Below, piece after piece: positions 3,300-63,517 of a stretch of DNA of 63,517 nt. The notes under the pieces are model-generated. The model searched no databases. It was not told the DNA's origin and was given only the letters and a program-made list of their open reading frames with translations. The translations under genes and the position numbers were made by a program. The stretch is from NCBI GenBank assembly GCA_016192035.1, contig JACPUW010000032.1, forward strand, positions 65,450 to 128,966, written 5' to 3'. The stretch comes from Bacteroidota bacterium (lineage in GTDB: Bacteria; Bacteroidota; Bacteroidia; CAILMK01; JACPUW01). The stretch's first letter is position 1. Each line of letters starts with the position of its first letter.

Positions 3300-3315
3300 G
3301 CTATCTTGCAGGCTA

Positions 3316-4968
3316 ATGGCATCCTCCACCCCCAAGGCACTCTTGTTCCTGCTGCCCTTTATCTGCCAAGCAGCACATGGCCAGGGCCTGTATGCCTTTG
3401 ACCATCCTTTTGAGGGAGCGGCGCAACGTATTTTCAAGGTAGAGGGCAATAAAATATGGCTCACCGGAGGCTGGCAAAGCGAAAAACGGGGTGATTTTGT
3501 GGGCATGACGGTAGCTACCATCTGGGGAGACAGCCTGCACCTCCAGCCCATCCATGTGCTGCACGGCGAAGAAGCCTATTTGATGCACTTTATAAAAAAA
3601 CCCAAATCGGTGATTTATATCGGACTACGATACGAATTGGGCTGCCGGTTCCTAGCAGAAGGCAATTTTATTTACAACTTTAACGAACATTTTCAGCCGT
3701 ACGGCAAGCCTGTAAGGATCAATTACTTCTTTAAAAATATAAAGGAACCCCTGAGCGAGGCGGTGTTCATAGATGACAATACTATGGCCTTTACCCAAGG
3801 CCACCTCTTGGTAAGCTATCATGTAAACCAACGCAAATCTGTGGCGTTCAATGATTCGCTAAAGAGCTTTTCCAATCTTATTCCCCTATCTGGGGGCCTA
3901 TTCGTATGTATTGAAGGGAGCAAGTTTCATATTATGGATCGCACGTGCAAGGTGGTATCAAGCAGCTATATGGGTTTGGTTCCCAAGCAAATAATGCCCA
4001 TTAAAGGGAGTCCTACGGGCTACCTGGCCCTTGCCAGTCGTAGGCTCGATGTGCTAAACGCCAGTGGGCAATCGGTATATGAACACAATTGGCAATCAGT
4101 AAGCCCGGTTTTTGACAGTCTCGACCGCATGTTTTACAATGGGGATTCCTTGTTTATCCTGGGCATGAAGGACCAACAATGGGTGTTGGCCAAGCTCAAC
4201 CACAACTTTGATTTTCTGGATACCCTTACCCTTCCTACCCAGGGCCTTTATCCCTTGGACATAGCACTTGACGGCCCCTGGGTGTATGCCGTGTTGGCCC
4301 CCGCAACTGGCCACGACCAAAGAATGGGATATTTGGGCCGCTTCCACCGAAATAAACCCATGATTCCCCCAACAGCTTATCCATCAATTACCCAAGTACA
4401 GGTAGATTCCCTTCACGGCAGGCAAGCCGGCTTAAGCCTTCACCCTATTTTTTATACTTCATTTACCCTTACCAATACTGATACCTTAGCCCTAAGGCAC
4501 ATAAGCATTTTATGGCGCAGTAGCACCGATTCTACCTGTCTTGGCCAAGAAAAAAGCCGATCATATACCCTACACCTGCTGCCCAACCAGGATACCACCC
4601 TGTATCTGGATCTAGTGGATTCCTTCCTTACCCCAAACACCCTGTATGAGCTCTGCATCACTGCAAGTTCTCCAAATGGAAAACTGGGGCTTGGAGCCCA
4701 ATCAAACGCCTGTGCCACTGTACTATTGCCCCCATTAGGTTTGGCAGAACCACCCACCCACTGGCAACCTCCTACCGCACTGAGGCAAGGGGATGCCCTG
4801 TCATTGCCAGACCAAGTAGCCTATCAGTGGCATTCGCTCACAGGTAAGTTGATGTACCAAGGCAAGGGCGGGTTCCTACACATTCCCCATCAATTGCCAA
4901 AAGGAGTGTACCTACTTGTTGTACTTATCGATAACAAACCTACCCCCTACCGGGTCCTGGTTTTTTAA
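3316..4968 (+). CDS. Secreted protein with a degenerate T9SS-like C-terminal tail
   Basis: A 550-residue protein from the ATG at 3316. A Sec signal peptide is visible (ALLFLLPFICQAAHGQG, cleavage probably after AHG). The middle consists of beta-rich segments with no recognised motif. The last ~75 residues resemble a type A T9SS sorting domain in layout: YQWHSLTGKLMYQGKG, then LPKGVYLLVVLIDNKP and a short final strand, but the usual YPNP opening is missing. The in-frame TTG at 3298 would add six residues before the signal peptide and overlap the terminator, so I reject it. Exported cargo is likely; the function is unknown. Confidence 0.8.
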   Translation: MASSTPKALLFLLPFICQAAHGQGLYAFDHPFEGAAQRIFKVEGNKIWLTGGWQSEKRGDFVGMTVATIWGDSLHLQPIHVLHGEEAYLMHFIKKPKSVIYIGLRYELGCRFLAEGNFIYNFNEHFQPYGKPVRINYFFKNIKEPLSEAVFIDDNTMAFTQGHLLVSYHVNQRKSVAFNDSLKSFSNLIPLSGGLFVCIEGSKFHIMDRTCKVVSSSYMGLVPKQIMPIKGSPTGYLALASRRLDVLNASGQSVYEHNWQSVSPVFDSLDRMFYNGDSLFILGMKDQQWVLAKLNHNFDFLDTLTLPTQGLYPLDIALDGPWVYAVLAPATGHDQRMGYLGRFHRNKPMIPPTAYPSITQVQVDSLHGRQAGLSLHPIFYTSFTLTNTDTLALRHISILWRSSTDSTCLGQEKSRSYTLHLLPNQDTTLYLDLVDSFLTPNTLYELCITASSPNGKLGLGAQSNACATVLLPPLGLAEPPTHWQPPTALRQGDALSLPDQVAYQWHSLTGKLMYQGKGGFLHIPHQLPKGVYLLVVLIDNKPTPYRVLVF

Positions 4969-57381: not shown

Positions 57382-60300
57382 ATGTTCAAATTTAAGTTAG
57401 CTCTCTCACTTTTTATGTTGACCTTGTCAACTGCCATTGCACAAACCTGGGAGTGTGTTGTACTAGAAGACACCACGCAAGACACTTCATATGGTTTTTC
57501 CGAGATTCTTGCACCTTATCAATGTGGCGATGCCGTCGATTATGGACCTATTCCAAAATATGCCAGTCACACCCCAATCAAGAAAATTAGGGTAGTACTT
57601 CATATTATTCAAGATGAGAATGGGGATGGCAACTTCGATGACATTGACATTAACAACCAGTATCACAACTCACAGAGTGAATATTGGGTTAAACTTTTTA
57701 ACGATCTGAATAACAGATATTCAACCCTTAAACATGAGACTAGGCAACATCCCAATCATCCAACGCCGATTATGAAGGATAGTCGTATTCGTTTTGTGCT
57801 AGAACAAGAGAATATCTACTATCACGAAGACCCAGATTTTGACGACTACGATGCCGGAACACCAGAACCAAACGGGAATTACTTGCCAGACCTAAGGCTG
57901 GGTAAGGTTTTTCCCAAATTTGTGACTGACAACCCCAATATGCCATTCAAGGACAATGCTCTCCATGTTTTTTGCTTTCCGCTCGTATATGGTAACACGA
58001 CGAATTGGGCCTTCCTTAACTCAAATTTATTGGCCCTGAATGGGAACTATGAAAATTTCACCTCTCATGGCCCCAATAGTTGGTATATGCAATCTAGCTC
58101 AATTGCCCATGAAATTGCACATTGCCTAGGATTGGTGCATACTAATAGAACTGATGGAGGTAACTGTTCGACCTCTCACGATGACGGCTGCGATGACACA
58201 CCTCGTATGGGCCCGCGAAATCCCTGCCCTTGTTGGGACGGAATTGCATCTAGTCATGGTCATACTGGCGATAACGACTCATGTTCCACCAATTTGATGA
58301 CGTATAACAATAAACAGCATGCCCTTACCCGGGGCCAAGTTGGAAAGATCCATTATTCTCTTATGCACCATCTATCTGTAAACAAATACTGGATTAACGA
58401 CTACTGTGAACACGATGCCAGTGAAACAATTACCATTTCATCGGGCACAAACATTGTTTGGGAAAACTCTCGATACTTAAAAGGCGATTTGGTAATTGAA
58501 AGCGGAGCCTCGCTTACCATTAAGTGCTATTTGTCCTTGCCAAATGGTGCGGAGATTAAGGTAAAACCGGGAGGTAAATTCATCATTGACGGTGGACGGG
58601 TAGGTAATGTTTGCGGAGAAACATTTGCGGGTATCCGTGTTTATGGCCACACTAACCTTTCCCAAACTCAGGCCAACCAAGGATGGGTCATTCTGAGAAA
58701 TGGTGCCATCATTGAGAACGCTCACGTAGGCCTAAGCTTGATTGGACTTGATGCCAATGGAGAACTTGATTGGGGTGGCAGTGGTGGAATTGTGCATGCT
58801 ATAAATTCTACGTTTAGAAATAACGGAAAGGATGTGGAGTTCATGAGCTACCATCCTAAAAATTCCTACGGACAGGAATTGTTTAACAGTTCTTACTTTC
58901 AGAACTGTACGTTTGTTACTACTGACAACGTAGTATTTGCAAACAGTGCCCTTAAGGAACATGTTACCATGTGGGATGTGAACGGAGTAAAATTTTTGGG
59001 CTGCTCTTTTTATGAACAAAGGGGGGGCTTATTGCCTTCTGCCAGTAGGATAGGAATATACTCCATTGACGCAAATTTTACAGTAGATCAACTATGCGCT
59101 ACTTCTCCTTGCATCAACCCAGACCAAACAGAATTTACTGGTCTTAAAAACGCCATTATGTGCTTTGGGAACGGCTCCAAGGGCCTAATACGTATTGAGA
59201 ACACCCTATTTGAATCTCATCAAGGCGTGTATCTCAATGGCACATTTGTAAGCCAGGTCCGCGCCAATAATTTTAATATAACGCATGGACTATTGGGCGG
59301 CGGGCCTAGCGACGATATTCCTTATGGTTTGTACCTTGATCTTTGTGAAGGGTTCAATACAGAGGGGAATCAGTTCAATGGCTTGGGCAGTGCAGCCACC
59401 GGAAGCGCCGCTGGACTGGTGGTGCGCAACGCTGGGGAAACCATCAATGAATTTTACCGTTCCGAATTCAACGACCTTAGGGTAGGTTCAGAAGCTATTG
59501 GCTTTAACCGGAATCCAATTTCATTTGATGGCCTAATTTTCAGGTGCAACGACTACGAAAATGGATTTGACGATCTGTACGTGGTAGAAAATGACGACCC
59601 TTGGAGCGTTTATGGCCCTTTGTGGTGGGGGATGGCTGAAAGGCAAGGTATAGCAGGAAATTGGTACCCCGACAACGTCTTTGGCAACAATAGTTCACTT
59701 CTTAACTTCAATGCCGAAAACCTATGCCTGAGAATGGACTATCTCTACGACGGAGCCCCAATACAGTCCAACCGATACTATCCTTATGTGGTTACTACCT
59801 CTACTTTTTATAGATTGGGGTATCCACACGATAAACCATGTCCTGATTTAATTGACGGCTACGGTAGTGAAACCGGGTCATTAGTAAACAACATGATGGC
59901 CTTGATTAATGAGCTTTCAGACAAAAACAACGAAGTAAGCGAACTAACCGATGGTGGTGATTCCGAGCATTTTCTAGCTATAATAGAACAAGCCACCTAT
60001 GGCGATAAGGACTTTGTATTTAGTGAACTGTTTGCCGCCTCACCCTATCTGAGCAATCGGGTATTGGCCGAGATGGCGCAGAAAGAAGCCCCCTTTAGTC
60101 AAGTACAGGTACGTGACCTTTTGTTGGCCAATCCCCATGCTGCGCGCAATGCGTTTGTAATGGAGCTGCTAAATGGCCGCAGTGATAATTTTCCTCAGGA
60201 ATATATCAACAGCATAGAGGCTGTTAAGGAGTCTTACACCCATCGCGATACCGTGCTGTCCGAACTGGCGGCATTGGAGTATGCCTACGACGGCTATCTG

Positions 60301-61008
60301 AGGGAGTATCTAGCTGGCAAACTGGCCGATTCCACCACTACCACCATGCAACTGCACCCTTTTTTGAAGCATCCCACACAGCCCTCTTATCATTATCGTC
60401 TGGCCGACAGATACTTTGCCCAAGGTAAGTTTTCACAGTTTAGCCATGTAAAGGACAGCATCCCCATCCTCTTTGACCTAAACGAGCGACAATTGGCCTA
60501 TCACGACAGCTACAACCAATTGCATATCGCCATGCAGAATTGGTATGCTGCCGACAGCACTGTACACCGGGCTGATACGGGTAGGTACAATTATCTGCTC
60601 ACTTTTAGCGGCAATTACGCGGTTCTGCCGCCAGCCTATTACGCCATGATGGCCATAAATGACAGTTTGGCCCTGGGGCACGAGGTGTATATACCTGAAA
60701 CCGGCAGTTTGCCCCAAGGGGGAGGAAATATGGTTGAAGAGTTGCTGCAAGCCGAGAATGAGGCATCGGCCATAAACCTCTATCCCAATCCGGCCAACAA
60801 TACGGTTGCACTCGAATGGAAGGCGGGGTTTGTCCAAAGTCAAGTGAGCGTGTTTGATGCCGCAGGACGCCAGGTGTATCAGCGCCAGTGGAGCCACGAG
60901 CTTTCCCTGCATATGGACACTTCAAACTGGCCTAGCGGGAGCTACTTGATACGGATACAGACCGATACGGGACAAGTGTATAAACGAAATCTTATGATTA
61001 ACAAGTAA
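57382..61008 (+). CDS. Secreted M43-like metalloprotease with beta-helix region and T9SS type A sorting domain
   Basis: A 1208-residue protein. The signal peptide (LALSLFMLTLSTAIAQ) precedes a zinc-protease domain with HEIAHCLGLVH (H243, E244, H247, H253), the CDDTPRMGPRNPCPCW segment and the Met-turn region CSTNLMTYN, as in pappalysin/cytophagalysin-type M43 enzymes. Residues ~355-800 look like a right-handed beta helix (LVIESGASLTI, GAEIKVKPGGKFIIDGGRVG, STFRNNGKD, NCTFVTTDNVVF). A helical stretch follows, then the sorting tail from ~1130 (INLYPNPANNTVALEW, VFDAAGRQVYQ, WPSGSYLIRIQTDTG). Hand-counted G+C rises from ~42% in the protease to ~50-55% after nt ~60000. The likely role is extracellular or surface proteolysis. 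Confidence 0.9.
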   Translation: MFKFKLALSLFMLTLSTAIAQTWECVVLEDTTQDTSYGFSEILAPYQCGDAVDYGPIPKYASHTPIKKIRVVLHIIQDENGDGNFDDIDINNQYHNSQSEYWVKLFNDLNNRYSTLKHETRQHPNHPTPIMKDSRIRFVLEQENIYYHEDPDFDDYDAGTPEPNGNYLPDLRLGKVFPKFVTDNPNMPFKDNALHVFCFPLVYGNTTNWAFLNSNLLALNGNYENFTSHGPNSWYMQSSSIAHEIAHCLGLVHTNRTDGGNCSTSHDDGCDDTPRMGPRNPCPCWDGIASSHGHTGDNDSCSTNLMTYNNKQHALTRGQVGKIHYSLMHHLSVNKYWINDYCEHDASETITISSGTNIVWENSRYLKGDLVIESGASLTIKCYLSLPNGAEIKVKPGGKFIIDGGRVGNVCGETFAGIRVYGHTNLSQTQANQGWVILRNGAIIENAHVGLSLIGLDANGELDWGGSGGIVHAINSTFRNNGKDVEFMSYHPKNSYGQELFNSSYFQNCTFVTTDNVVFANSALKEHVTMWDVNGVKFLGCSFYEQRGGLLPSASRIGIYSIDANFTVDQLCATSPCINPDQTEFTGLKNAIMCFGNGSKGLIRIENTLFESHQGVYLNGTFVSQVRANNFNITHGLLGGGPSDDIPYGLYLDLCEGFNTEGNQFNGLGSAATGSAAGLVVRNAGETINEFYRSEFNDLRVGSEAIGFNRNPISFDGLIFRCNDYENGFDDLYVVENDDPWSVYGPLWWGMAERQGIAGNWYPDNVFGNNSSLLNFNAENLCLRMDYLYDGAPIQSNRYYPYVVTTSTFYRLGYPHDKPCPDLIDGYGSETGSLVNNMMALINELSDKNNEVSELTDGGDSEHFLAIIEQATYGDKDFVFSELFAASPYLSNRVLAEMAQKEAPFSQVQVRDLLLANPHAARNAFVMELLNGRSDNFPQEYINSIEAVKESYTHRDTVLSELAALEYAYDGYLREYLAGKLADSTTTTMQLHPFLKHPTQPSYHYRLADRYFAQGKFSQFSHVKDSIPILFDLNERQLAYHDSYNQLHIAMQNWYAADSTVHRADTGRYNYLLTFSGNYAVLPPAYYAMMAINDSLALGHEVYIPETGSLPQGGGNMVEELLQAENEASAINLYPNPANNTVALEWKAGFVQSQVSVFDAAGRQVYQRQWSHELSLHMDTSNWPSGSYLIRIQTDTGQVYKRNLMINK

Positions 61009-61068: not shown

Positions 61069-62691
61069 ATGAAACATTTTGTACTTTCTCTATTATTGAT
61101 AGCTGCAGGTCTTCACGCCCGTGCACAGGGCGGTTGGATCCAATTACAGCCTGGCATGAACAATATGAGTATGTTACTTCTTGGCGATACTATCATTACG
61201 GCCGGAAATTCCGGTGATTTTGACTTTAATTACATTCATGTGAATTTTGCTGATTGGAAAACTGGAAGTCTATTGAGAAATGACTCAATATTATATAAAC
61301 CAAAGGATGCTGATATAGTATATCTCTGGAATACCATGTATTTCAATAATTGCATTATGATCTACATGAATGATATACTTATTGGCCTTAATTATTACAA
61401 CATATCGGGTTCATCAATCAAATGGCAGATTGGTGTTTTTTCATTAAATCAATACAATTTGCTCGATTTAAATTTAGCAGAAGATACCTTTAAGCACTAT
61501 TTTGCTGGAGGTTATGTCTTTGATGACAAATTATACATTATTAACCGATGGATGGATCCAGACAATGAAAAAGCTATCTATCCCAATTTTGAAATATTGT
61601 CAATAAATACTGGCAGCCGGAAAAAATCAATTTTCAAAGCCTTTAACAGAACACTGAAATACTGGAACATGATACGGGACCTATTGGATGACAACCAATC
61701 TGATAATACCTTTTTTGTTAACAGAGAGTTGGCTTGGGATTTTAGGGGGGTGCCCATGGCGTTTGAAAACTATATCTGGAAAATGGACACCACGGGAAAC
61801 CTGGTATGGTCTGCCCCGCTCTACTACAACGATTCGCTTAACATGGCGGGATGCCATATTGTGCAAAAAAACAAGGGCAACCTGCTGGCCATGTGGAACA
61901 ATTTTCAATACAAGCCCTATAGGCATCCTGAATGGCGTTCGATAGAAGCCCAACCAAACGACAGCAGCACCCTGTGCCTGGCCGAAGTGGACTATGAAAC
62001 CGGGGCGGTTATAAACCGGCGCAGTTATAGAAAGTACTTATTTAAGCACATGACCCACAGCGGATCGTTTCCTAAAAGTGAAACCGTTCAAGATTTTTTA
62101 TTAATGGATGTACTAAAAGTAACTGACGGCATTATTTGGGCCGGAACCAGGACTTTATTTCAGTATGTAAAGCCATATACCATCAACATGCCATTCCTCT
62201 TCAAAACCGATTTTAGCGGCAAGCCATTGTGGTATAGGGATTATATTGTTTTTCCGGATAGCGAAACCGACGAAGGCATGTTGCTAAACGCTATTGTACA
62301 TACACCCGATGGCGGTTTTGTAATGGCGGGAGAAAACCGCGACTTTGGGCGCTATGATGTGCAAAGAAGCATTCTGGTTAAGGTAGATAGTTTTGGCTGC
62401 TTGATACCCGGCTGCCAGAAGAGGGACAATATCAATGAAACGGTCAAATTGAAGTGCGGCATTTATCCCAACCCCGCAAACTCCAGCCTAGCGGTAACGC
62501 TGCCGCCGGGTGACGGCAACTGGGTTTACCAAATAACCGATGCCACCGGCCGCTTGCTCCTACAGGGCAGCCTAAGCCGCGAGACCAACCAAATCCCCAC
62601 CCATGGCCTGCCCGTGGGCATTTATCAACTTCACTTGCAAAACACTAAAAATCAATACCATGAAAACCATTCCTTTGTTGTTGTTAGGTAG
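61069..62691 (+). CDS. T9SS type A cargo protein of unknown function
   Basis: A 540-residue protein with the signal peptide FVLSLLLIAAGLHARAQ, a central region of ~430 residues with repeated beta-strand and aromatic segments that may form a propeller, and a sorting tail from about residue 460 (CGIYPNPANSSLAVTLPP, QITDATGRLLLQGSL, LPVGIYQLHLQN). Hand-counted G+C is as low as ~27% near 61.45 kb and ~44% just before the tail, then ~63% in the tail itself. It probably shares a transcript with the metalloprotease gene. No catalytic motif is seen. Confidence 0.87.
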   Translation: MKHFVLSLLLIAAGLHARAQGGWIQLQPGMNNMSMLLLGDTIITAGNSGDFDFNYIHVNFADWKTGSLLRNDSILYKPKDADIVYLWNTMYFNNCIMIYMNDILIGLNYYNISGSSIKWQIGVFSLNQYNLLDLNLAEDTFKHYFAGGYVFDDKLYIINRWMDPDNEKAIYPNFEILSINTGSRKKSIFKAFNRTLKYWNMIRDLLDDNQSDNTFFVNRELAWDFRGVPMAFENYIWKMDTTGNLVWSAPLYYNDSLNMAGCHIVQKNKGNLLAMWNNFQYKPYRHPEWRSIEAQPNDSSTLCLAEVDYETGAVINRRSYRKYLFKHMTHSGSFPKSETVQDFLLMDVLKVTDGIIWAGTRTLFQYVKPYTINMPFLFKTDFSGKPLWYRDYIVFPDSETDEGMLLNAIVHTPDGGFVMAGENRDFGRYDVQRSILVKVDSFGCLIPGCQKRDNINETVKLKCGIYPNPANSSLAVTLPPGDGNWVYQITDATGRLLLQGSLSRETNQIPTHGLPVGIYQLHLQNTKNQYHENHSFVVVR

Positions 62692-63517
62692 TTTGATGCT
62701 TAACCCTTGCCCACCAAAAGCCACCGCACAAGTGCAAATTCAAGCATTGAATTATTGGATGTTCTGGAGTGGCAATAGCCCTAATACCGTCAGCTTTAAA
62801 GACAGCCTCCATGTACTTACTAGCGTTAATGATTCTGTCATTTTTTCGATTAGCCATTCCATAATCAATAAATACTCTGGTACAGACACATTTTTGTACG
62901 CCAACGGACAAATCATAAAATTATCGGGTAAAAAGCGGTTGATTTTTGACGAAAATCTTTCAGTTGGAGATACCATTTTTTTTGGCAATTATTATCATTC
63001 GTACAGAATAATTGATGTTAAGGACACCACATTGAAAGATGGTGTGGTAAGAAAGACTTGGAACATGCTAGCCAACGTTGGTAGCCCTTGGTACTACCCT
63101 GCTACTTGGATACAGGGCATTGGAGAAAAAAGACAGGGATTTAATTGGAACCCTGTGGTTAGCACCGCACCCATTCCACATATAATCGCTATTTGCAATG
63201 ACGATTCCCTCATCGTTTGGTATCCGTACTTTTATCCGGATATAGTTACCCCTTCCTGCGATTTTGATTATTTGGATACCTATCTGGGTATCAACCCTAC
63301 AGCAACAAAATCAATGGATTGCAGCCTCTACCCCAACCCCGCCGACGATGGGCTTACCCTTGACCTGGGCGGCCTTGCGGGCGGACCAATAACGGAGGTG
63401 GCCATACTGGACCTGGAAGGCAAGGCCCAAACGGGCTTTACGTTCCGGCAAGAAGGCACCGGCCGCCTGGGCTTCTACCACCTAGAGGGCCTGGCAGCCG
63501 GTTCCTACCTTATCCAA
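62660..63517 (+). CDS. T9SS type A cargo protein, 3' truncated at the window edge
   Basis: An ATG at 62660, inside the last codons of the previous gene (32-nt overlap, different frame), opens a frame that stays open to the window end: 286 codons. The signal peptide (IPLLLLGSLMLNPCPPKATA) is followed by an unrecognised aromatic-rich cargo domain (VQIQALNYWMFWSGNSPNT, SLHVLTSVNDSVIFSISHSI, WNMLANVGSPWYYPATWIQG). The sorting tail begins near 63315 (CSLYPNPADDGLTLDLGG, VAILDLEGKAQTGF, GLAAGSYLIQ) and lacks only its last strand. G+C jumps from ~40% to ~63% where the tail begins. Confidence 0.85.
   Translation, partial: MKTIPLLLLGSLMLNPCPPKATAQVQIQALNYWMFWSGNSPNTVSFKDSLHVLTSVNDSVIFSISHSIINKYSGTDTFLYANGQIIKLSGKKRLIFDENLSVGDTIFFGNYYHSYRIIDVKDTTLKDGVVRKTWNMLANVGSPWYYPATWIQGIGEKRQGFNWNPVVSTAPIPHIIAICNDDSLIVWYPYFYPDIVTPSCDFDYLDTYLGINPTATKSMDCSLYPNPADDGLTLDLGGLAGGPITEVAILDLEGKAQTGFTFRQEGTGRLGFYHLEGLAAGSYLIQ

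Follow-up and report, generated by a model that had tools for sequence, protein, structure and literature searches.

Type IX sorting tails as probable recombining modules among the cargo genes of a Bacteroidota genome

The sorting tail of about 76 residues that closes cargo proteins of the type IX secretion system (T9SS) appears to act as a recombining module that is copied between cargo genes, a reading to which we assign a probability of roughly 0.7; of two neighbouring genes considered here, gene 3 has most likely had its tail replaced and gene 2 apparently has not. The window (the whole stretch of 63,517 nucleotides that was analysed, C21:65450–128966) belongs to a draft genome of 2.98 Mb in 44 contigs (G000, hereafter the focal genome). 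In genomes of this group, one loosely conserved sorting tail is found on about 90 to 150 cargos, and how new proteins acquire such a tail had been open. In engineered fusions, the T9SS type A sorting domain (PF18962/TIGR04183) works as a signal that can be transplanted. The candidate events described below are recent and sharply bordered, one of them with a likely donor and recipient, and a simple scan of synonymous G+C finds them, so that cases in which a protein becomes secreted by capturing a tail can be counted directly. They also warn that the history of sorting tails should not be assumed to be that of their cargos.

The window ends in three T9SS cargo genes, listed here with their tails (the first position of each tail is its border) and the junction between the second and third:

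57382–61008, forward strand: gene 1, M43-like secreted metallopeptidase cargo with a T9SS type A tail (PF05572, and PF18962/TIGR04183 over cut-off)
60778–61005, forward strand: sorting tail of gene 1
61069–62691, forward strand: gene 2, cargo without a known domain and a T9SS tail (PF18962, 35.7 bits; TIGR04183 cut-off also passed)
62461–62688, forward strand: sorting tail of gene 2, ending YHENHSFVVVR (GC3 0.60 against 0.42 in the cargo)
62660–62691, forward strand: 32-base dual-coding junction of the gene 2 tail end and the gene 3 start, an overlap common to six genomes
62660–63517, forward strand: gene 3, signal peptide, small A+T-rich cargo and T9SS tail, cut by the contig end and going on into C40, where it ends in LRIDNQTHAFAFVKN before the stop
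63326–63517, forward strand: sorting tail of gene 3, probably replaced (GC3 0.67 against 0.39–0.42 in the cargo)

All three genes are predicted T9SS type A cargos by their PF18962/TIGR04183 matches, and the genome encodes the T9SS translocon component SprA (C39:30140–37234, 2474 bits). Contig C21 stops where the window stops, cutting gene 3, whose tail, as truncated in the window, falls below the profile cut-off; the window's final 27 bases are repeated as C40:1–27, and gene 3 joined to C40 has a complete tail (TIGR04183, 33.1 bits, cut-off 23). A second copy of the three-gene block lies on C29 and contains paralogues of gene 1 (C29:6047) and gene 2 (C29:4377), each with 50% identity in the tail and 57% in the cargo; judged against its paralogue, gene 1 gives no sign of tail exchange in its sequence. 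Homologues of gene 2 were found in six other genomes (G001, G002, G005, G108, G224 and G249), and homologues of the gene 3 cargo on C29 and in G001, G002, G108 and G244. Among these, G001 is a relative from the same genus, itself a draft of about 160 contigs, such that both assemblies compared most closely below are fragmented.

The sequence-only reading had described a jump in G+C content at the tail border of both gene 2 and gene 3, and had taken it to suggest that A+T-rich cargo was fused to a native tail acting as an exchangeable cassette. In a formal sliding window, gene 3 rises in a clean step from 0.41 (63125–63274) to 0.65 (63350–63499). Gene 2 varies between 0.28 and 0.51 inside its cargo, begins to rise near 62225, has its maximum of 0.60 at 62450–62599 and returns to 0.43–0.50 before the stop, a profile that is a ramp with a bump and not a clean step. 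Because amino-acid composition had to be avoided as a cause, changepoints were sought at synonymous third positions only (GC3), with permutation P-values. The changepoint of gene 3 falls two codons from the tail border (0.39 to 0.67, P = 0.002); the best changepoint of gene 2 lies 265 synonymous codons upstream of the border, inside the cargo (P = 0.002), and the step at the border itself is weak (P = 0.010). The described jump therefore holds for gene 3 and is not well supported for gene 2. A compositional shift said to precede the tail of gene 1 by some 350 residues does exist, at a shorter distance (the best GC3 changepoint is about 185 codons before the tail), and the tails do not match the bulk composition as had been stated, since their G+C (0.53 in gene 2 and 0.59 in gene 3) is slightly above that of the window (0.50).

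Evidence for exchange that is independent of composition came from matching the 3′ parts of 94 tail genes of the focal genome against one another, a comparison of tails among themselves that the sequence-only reading had proposed and that returned three cases of nucleotide similarity starting at the tail border. The closest pair, C43:19059 and C43:21983, is 99.2% identical over 241 bases that begin one codon ahead of YPNP and extend a single base beyond the stop; neither flank can be aligned, and the cargos are of different kinds (BNR-like and a DUF5122 propeller, respectively). C1:2925 and C2:79, also with unrelated cargos, are 90.5% identical over 264 bases, from the exact tail border into downstream sequence. 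The third case involves the window: the tail of C29:3518, which has a gene 3 cargo, is 82.9% identical at the nucleotide level to the tail of gene 2 over 245 bases, beginning 11 bases before the border, and the cargos are again unrelated. Polarity can be proposed for two of these cases. The orthologue of C43:19059 in G001 is 61% identical in the cargo and 49% in the tail, the best match of all tails, and since the cargo–tail pairing is thereby kept, C43:21983 is the likely recipient; similarly, gene 2 cargos retain their own tails, which makes the gene 2 tail family the likely donor and C29:3518 the likely recipient.

Comparable pairs occur in relatives. In G244, the tails of the gene 3 homologue and of the next gene downstream are 90% identical over 207 bases, with borders at YPNP and the stop, and gene 2 of G108 shares its tail with a neighbour at 85%, the last ~115 bases being about 98% identical and the first half clearly less, a mosaic of the kind expected of a conversion tract. 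No recent tail exchange was detected at the nucleotide level among the 144 tails of G001 or the 74 tails of the complete genome G294, which points to an episodic process, and the C43 tail was found in no second genome among 30 relatives, apart from one 33-base match. A greater likeness of neighbouring tails is suggested in the focal genome (P = 0.017, a result driven by two pairs) and absent in G001, so it was rejected as a general feature. Mis-joined contigs could in principle fake such cargo–tail fusions in a fragmented genome, and several tails do lie near contig ends, with C1, C15 and C17 sharing end sequence. We consider an assembly artefact very improbable, as the C29 block and the pairs of C43, G108 and G244 are all internal to their contigs, the reading frames are intact, and the tail copies differ from each other and so are not one collapsed repeat.

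We then related exchange to composition across the genome stretches around tails, from which both 85 tail genes and 235 control genes were taken. Averaged over the 85 tail genes, tail GC3 exceeds cargo GC3 by 0.012 (P = 0.82), so there is no general rise near tails, although GC3 variance is greater in tail genes than in controls. A rise of at least 0.2 over the last 76 codons was seen in 6/85 tail genes and 0/235 controls (Fisher P = 3e-4), and a significant upward step at the border in 10 and none, respectively. A general increase of G+C towards gene ends or at all tails was thereby ruled out by the control genes; the sequence-only reading had named such a rise, irrespective of a tail, as what would undo its proposal. 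The other outcome that it had named, steps vanishing under formal analysis, did not occur either, apart from the poorly supported step of gene 2. The six tails with a close counterpart on an unrelated cargo hold GC3-step ranks 1, 2, 3, 6, 7 and 9 of 85 (P = 1e-7, the six forming three pairs and hence only three independent events), a strong link by which composition steps mark exchanged tails. Separately, significant internal GC3 changepoints are present in 19/85 tail genes and in 10/235 controls, which makes cargo genes of the focal genome compositional mosaics (5/130 in G001).

The height of these steps is explained only in part by the joining of foreign cargo to a native tail. Exchanged tails have a GC3 of 0.61–0.76, above both the average tail (0.554) and the control genes (0.553), and C43:19059 steps from 0.56 to 0.76 with its native tail, while its G001 orthologue is flat (0.43 and 0.42); this argues that the high G+C of exchanged tails goes beyond origin alone. 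Such values would suit a local process acting on tails, either GC-biased gene conversion between copies or codon selection, that raises G+C without any joining of differently composed sequences. As a full account of the steps we find it rather unlikely, given that the exchanged tails of G108 and G244 have no step and that most tails of the focal genome show no rise; biased gene conversion is nevertheless one possibility for the elevated G+C of tails that have been exchanged.

If tails are copied between cargos, homologous cargos should at times carry unrelated tails, and gene 3 provides such a case. Its orthologue in G001 (B_C125:3976) has a cargo that is 52% identical and an unrelated tail that ranks only 97th. 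Across the gene 3 cargo family (window, C29, G001, G002, G244 and G108), the six tails give 0/15 pairs above the 99% null level, as against 20/28 pairs among gene 2 tails from a comparable phylogenetic range. From these comparisons, gene 3 of the window probably carries a replaced tail. A search of 395 genomes for the donor of this tail returned no close match outside the contigs of the focal genome except 48 bases at 78%. The same comparisons led us to reject the idea that the gene 2 tail is foreign to its cargo: the pairing is conserved in most relatives, and its tail, as judged from these sequences, is not an exchanged one. The idea of an exchangeable cassette is thus upheld, with probability, for gene 3 and for other loci of the genome, through near-identical tails on unrelated cargos and unrelated tails on homologous cargos, and fails for gene 2, whose tail family stays with its cargo and whose largest compositional shift is internal.

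Genome-wide, 50 reciprocal-best cargo pairs were recovered between the focal genome and G001, of which 26 keep the best-matching tail; in 15 of the 50 the orthologue's tail ranks worse than 10th among all tails. Some part of this discordance may be divergence, as tails diverge faster than cargos. Taken to its limit, this consideration would dispense with exchange altogether, the tails of homologous cargos having diverged in place so fast that they now look unrelated, and many orthologous pairs in which cargos are 50–67% and tails only 23–35% identical, yet still best-matching, show how far such divergence goes. It cannot, however, yield tails that are 83–99% identical on unrelated cargos, and gene 2 tails are conserved over a phylogenetic range similar to that in which gene 3 tails are not. 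In-place divergence is therefore contradicted for the near-identical pairs named above and possible for single discordant orthologues; as a general explanation we hold it to be quite unlikely.

The boundary between genes 2 and 3 is itself unusual, in that two secretion signals are read from the same bases. In one frame, positions 62660–62691 supply the final ten codons of the gene 2 tail and its stop; in a second frame they hold the start of gene 3 with the signal-peptide residues MKTIPLLLLG. This 32-base overlap is present in six genomes from several families (G000 in both copies, G001, G002, G005, G108 and G249). A degenerate junction pattern found 10 sites in 7 of 395 genomes of the class (G000, G001, G002, G005, G108, G244 and G249), and a reversed control pattern found 0 sites in the same 395; read on both strands, the junction pattern gave rows with a site in 9 genomes. 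The overlap may explain why the gene 2 tail is conserved.

These observations allow for an exchanged unit that is the junction and not the tail, with repeated junctions flanking small cargos and homologous recombination between junctions moving or deleting them. Several findings fit: besides the spread of the overlap over six genomes, with the tail copies of C29 gene 3 and of the G108 neighbour came the hidden start and the signal peptide, behind which the frame has decayed; B_C128:39474 keeps the junction after loss of the upstream gene; and the two ends of contig G002:C326 (3256 bases) carry the same stretch of gene 2, as would be expected if genes 2 and 3 formed a tandem or circular unit. 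The C43 and C1/C2 pairs have no such overlap, and 5′ breakpoints at YPNP in gene 3 homologues would go unexplained, for which reason we see junction-driven exchange as possible though doubtful. A combined version, in which small cargos are shuffled by a dual-coding junction that serves as a portable recombination module and often-recombining tails gain G+C by biased gene conversion, seems improbable to us; if true, composition steps would be a readable record of exchange. Downstream of C29 gene 3, on the minus strand at about 3313–3519, lies the frame-shifted start of a fourth cargo gene, an intact relative of which is found in G001 (C128:39474–40448).

In the reading that we prefer, exchange of the tail itself, the tail-coding DNA of one cargo gene would from time to time be copied onto another, often a neighbour. 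The 5′ breakpoint would fall at the YPNP-coding start of the tail and the 3′ end at the stop codon or within homologous sequence that closely follows it, these borders lying where homology begins (the YPNP codons) and ends (the stop or shared downstream sequence). The recipient gene would keep its cargo and gain a new, presumably working export signal, and the products would survive because the translocon presumably accepts any type A tail. A donor and a recipient of unlike composition would leave a synonymous G+C step at the border. As the mechanism we infer an event seeded at YPNP, either gene conversion or homeologous recombination, although YPNP breakpoints could partly reflect selection for working fusions instead of the recombination mechanism.

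The nearest precedents are two published systems. In Tannerella forsythia, the KLIKK proteases are clustered, unrelated secreted protease domains with virtually identical T9SS C-terminal domains (CTDs), for which the authors suggest a recent common origin and fusion, note that a sister taxon has a homologous protease with a different CTD, and state that the origin of the identical CTDs requires further research (PMC4404884). The focal genome is similar in bearing near-identical CTDs on unrelated domains (C43, 99.2%; C1/C2, 90.5%; C21 gene 2/C29 gene 3, 82.9%). It differs in the unit, which is larger in KLIKK proteases (signal peptide, propeptide and C-terminal extension) and here runs from YPNP to the stop or just beyond; in the tail ends, which are LMVE, RVAKE and FVVVR and not KLIKK, with no shared upstream extension and similarity that stops at the border; and in the orthologue-inferred polarity of one event together with a composition step at the border. 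In Porphyromonas gingivalis, gingipains and HagA are T9SS cargos of a single genome between which recombination exchanges domains, and these cargos have a common conserved C-terminal domain of about 80 residues (PMC5266723); what varies among them is the adhesin modules that precede the CTD, whereas in the focal genome the CTD itself would change partner. Polymorphic toxins have their C-terminal parts replaced by recombination with cassettes (PMC3482391), the toxin being the variable end. In the present genes it is the export tail that changes while the cargo stays the same, and they do not qualify as polymorphic toxins, for the variable end is a sorting domain and neither a toxin nor an immunity gene was recognised in the block. 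A literature search, largely without subscription papers, found no report of T9SS tail gene conversion beyond these precedents. All tails discussed resemble the type A domain, to whose portability a natural, DNA-bordered transfer is added here; relative to KLIKK proteases and gingipains, what is new is the sharp borders, the polarity, the compositional marker and the conserved overlap of tail and signal peptide.

Further observations concern the surroundings of other tails. At C15:28237–28490, at a contig end, lies a truncated tail without cargo that aligns with the C1:2925 tail over 254 bases at 96% identity, and C1 and C15 both finish with the sequence that opens C17 (123 bases). A dispersed repeat (beginning GGGCTTCGACTGCGCYCAGCCACC; seen, for example, in C17:1–200) lies 3′ of the C1/C2 tails and recurs at several other sites in the genome. 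Finally, the paralogues C2:13110 and C26:1553 are about 80% identical at the nucleotide level over roughly 850 bases of cargo, a similarity that is lost about 125 bases before the tail, and their tails are 34% identical.
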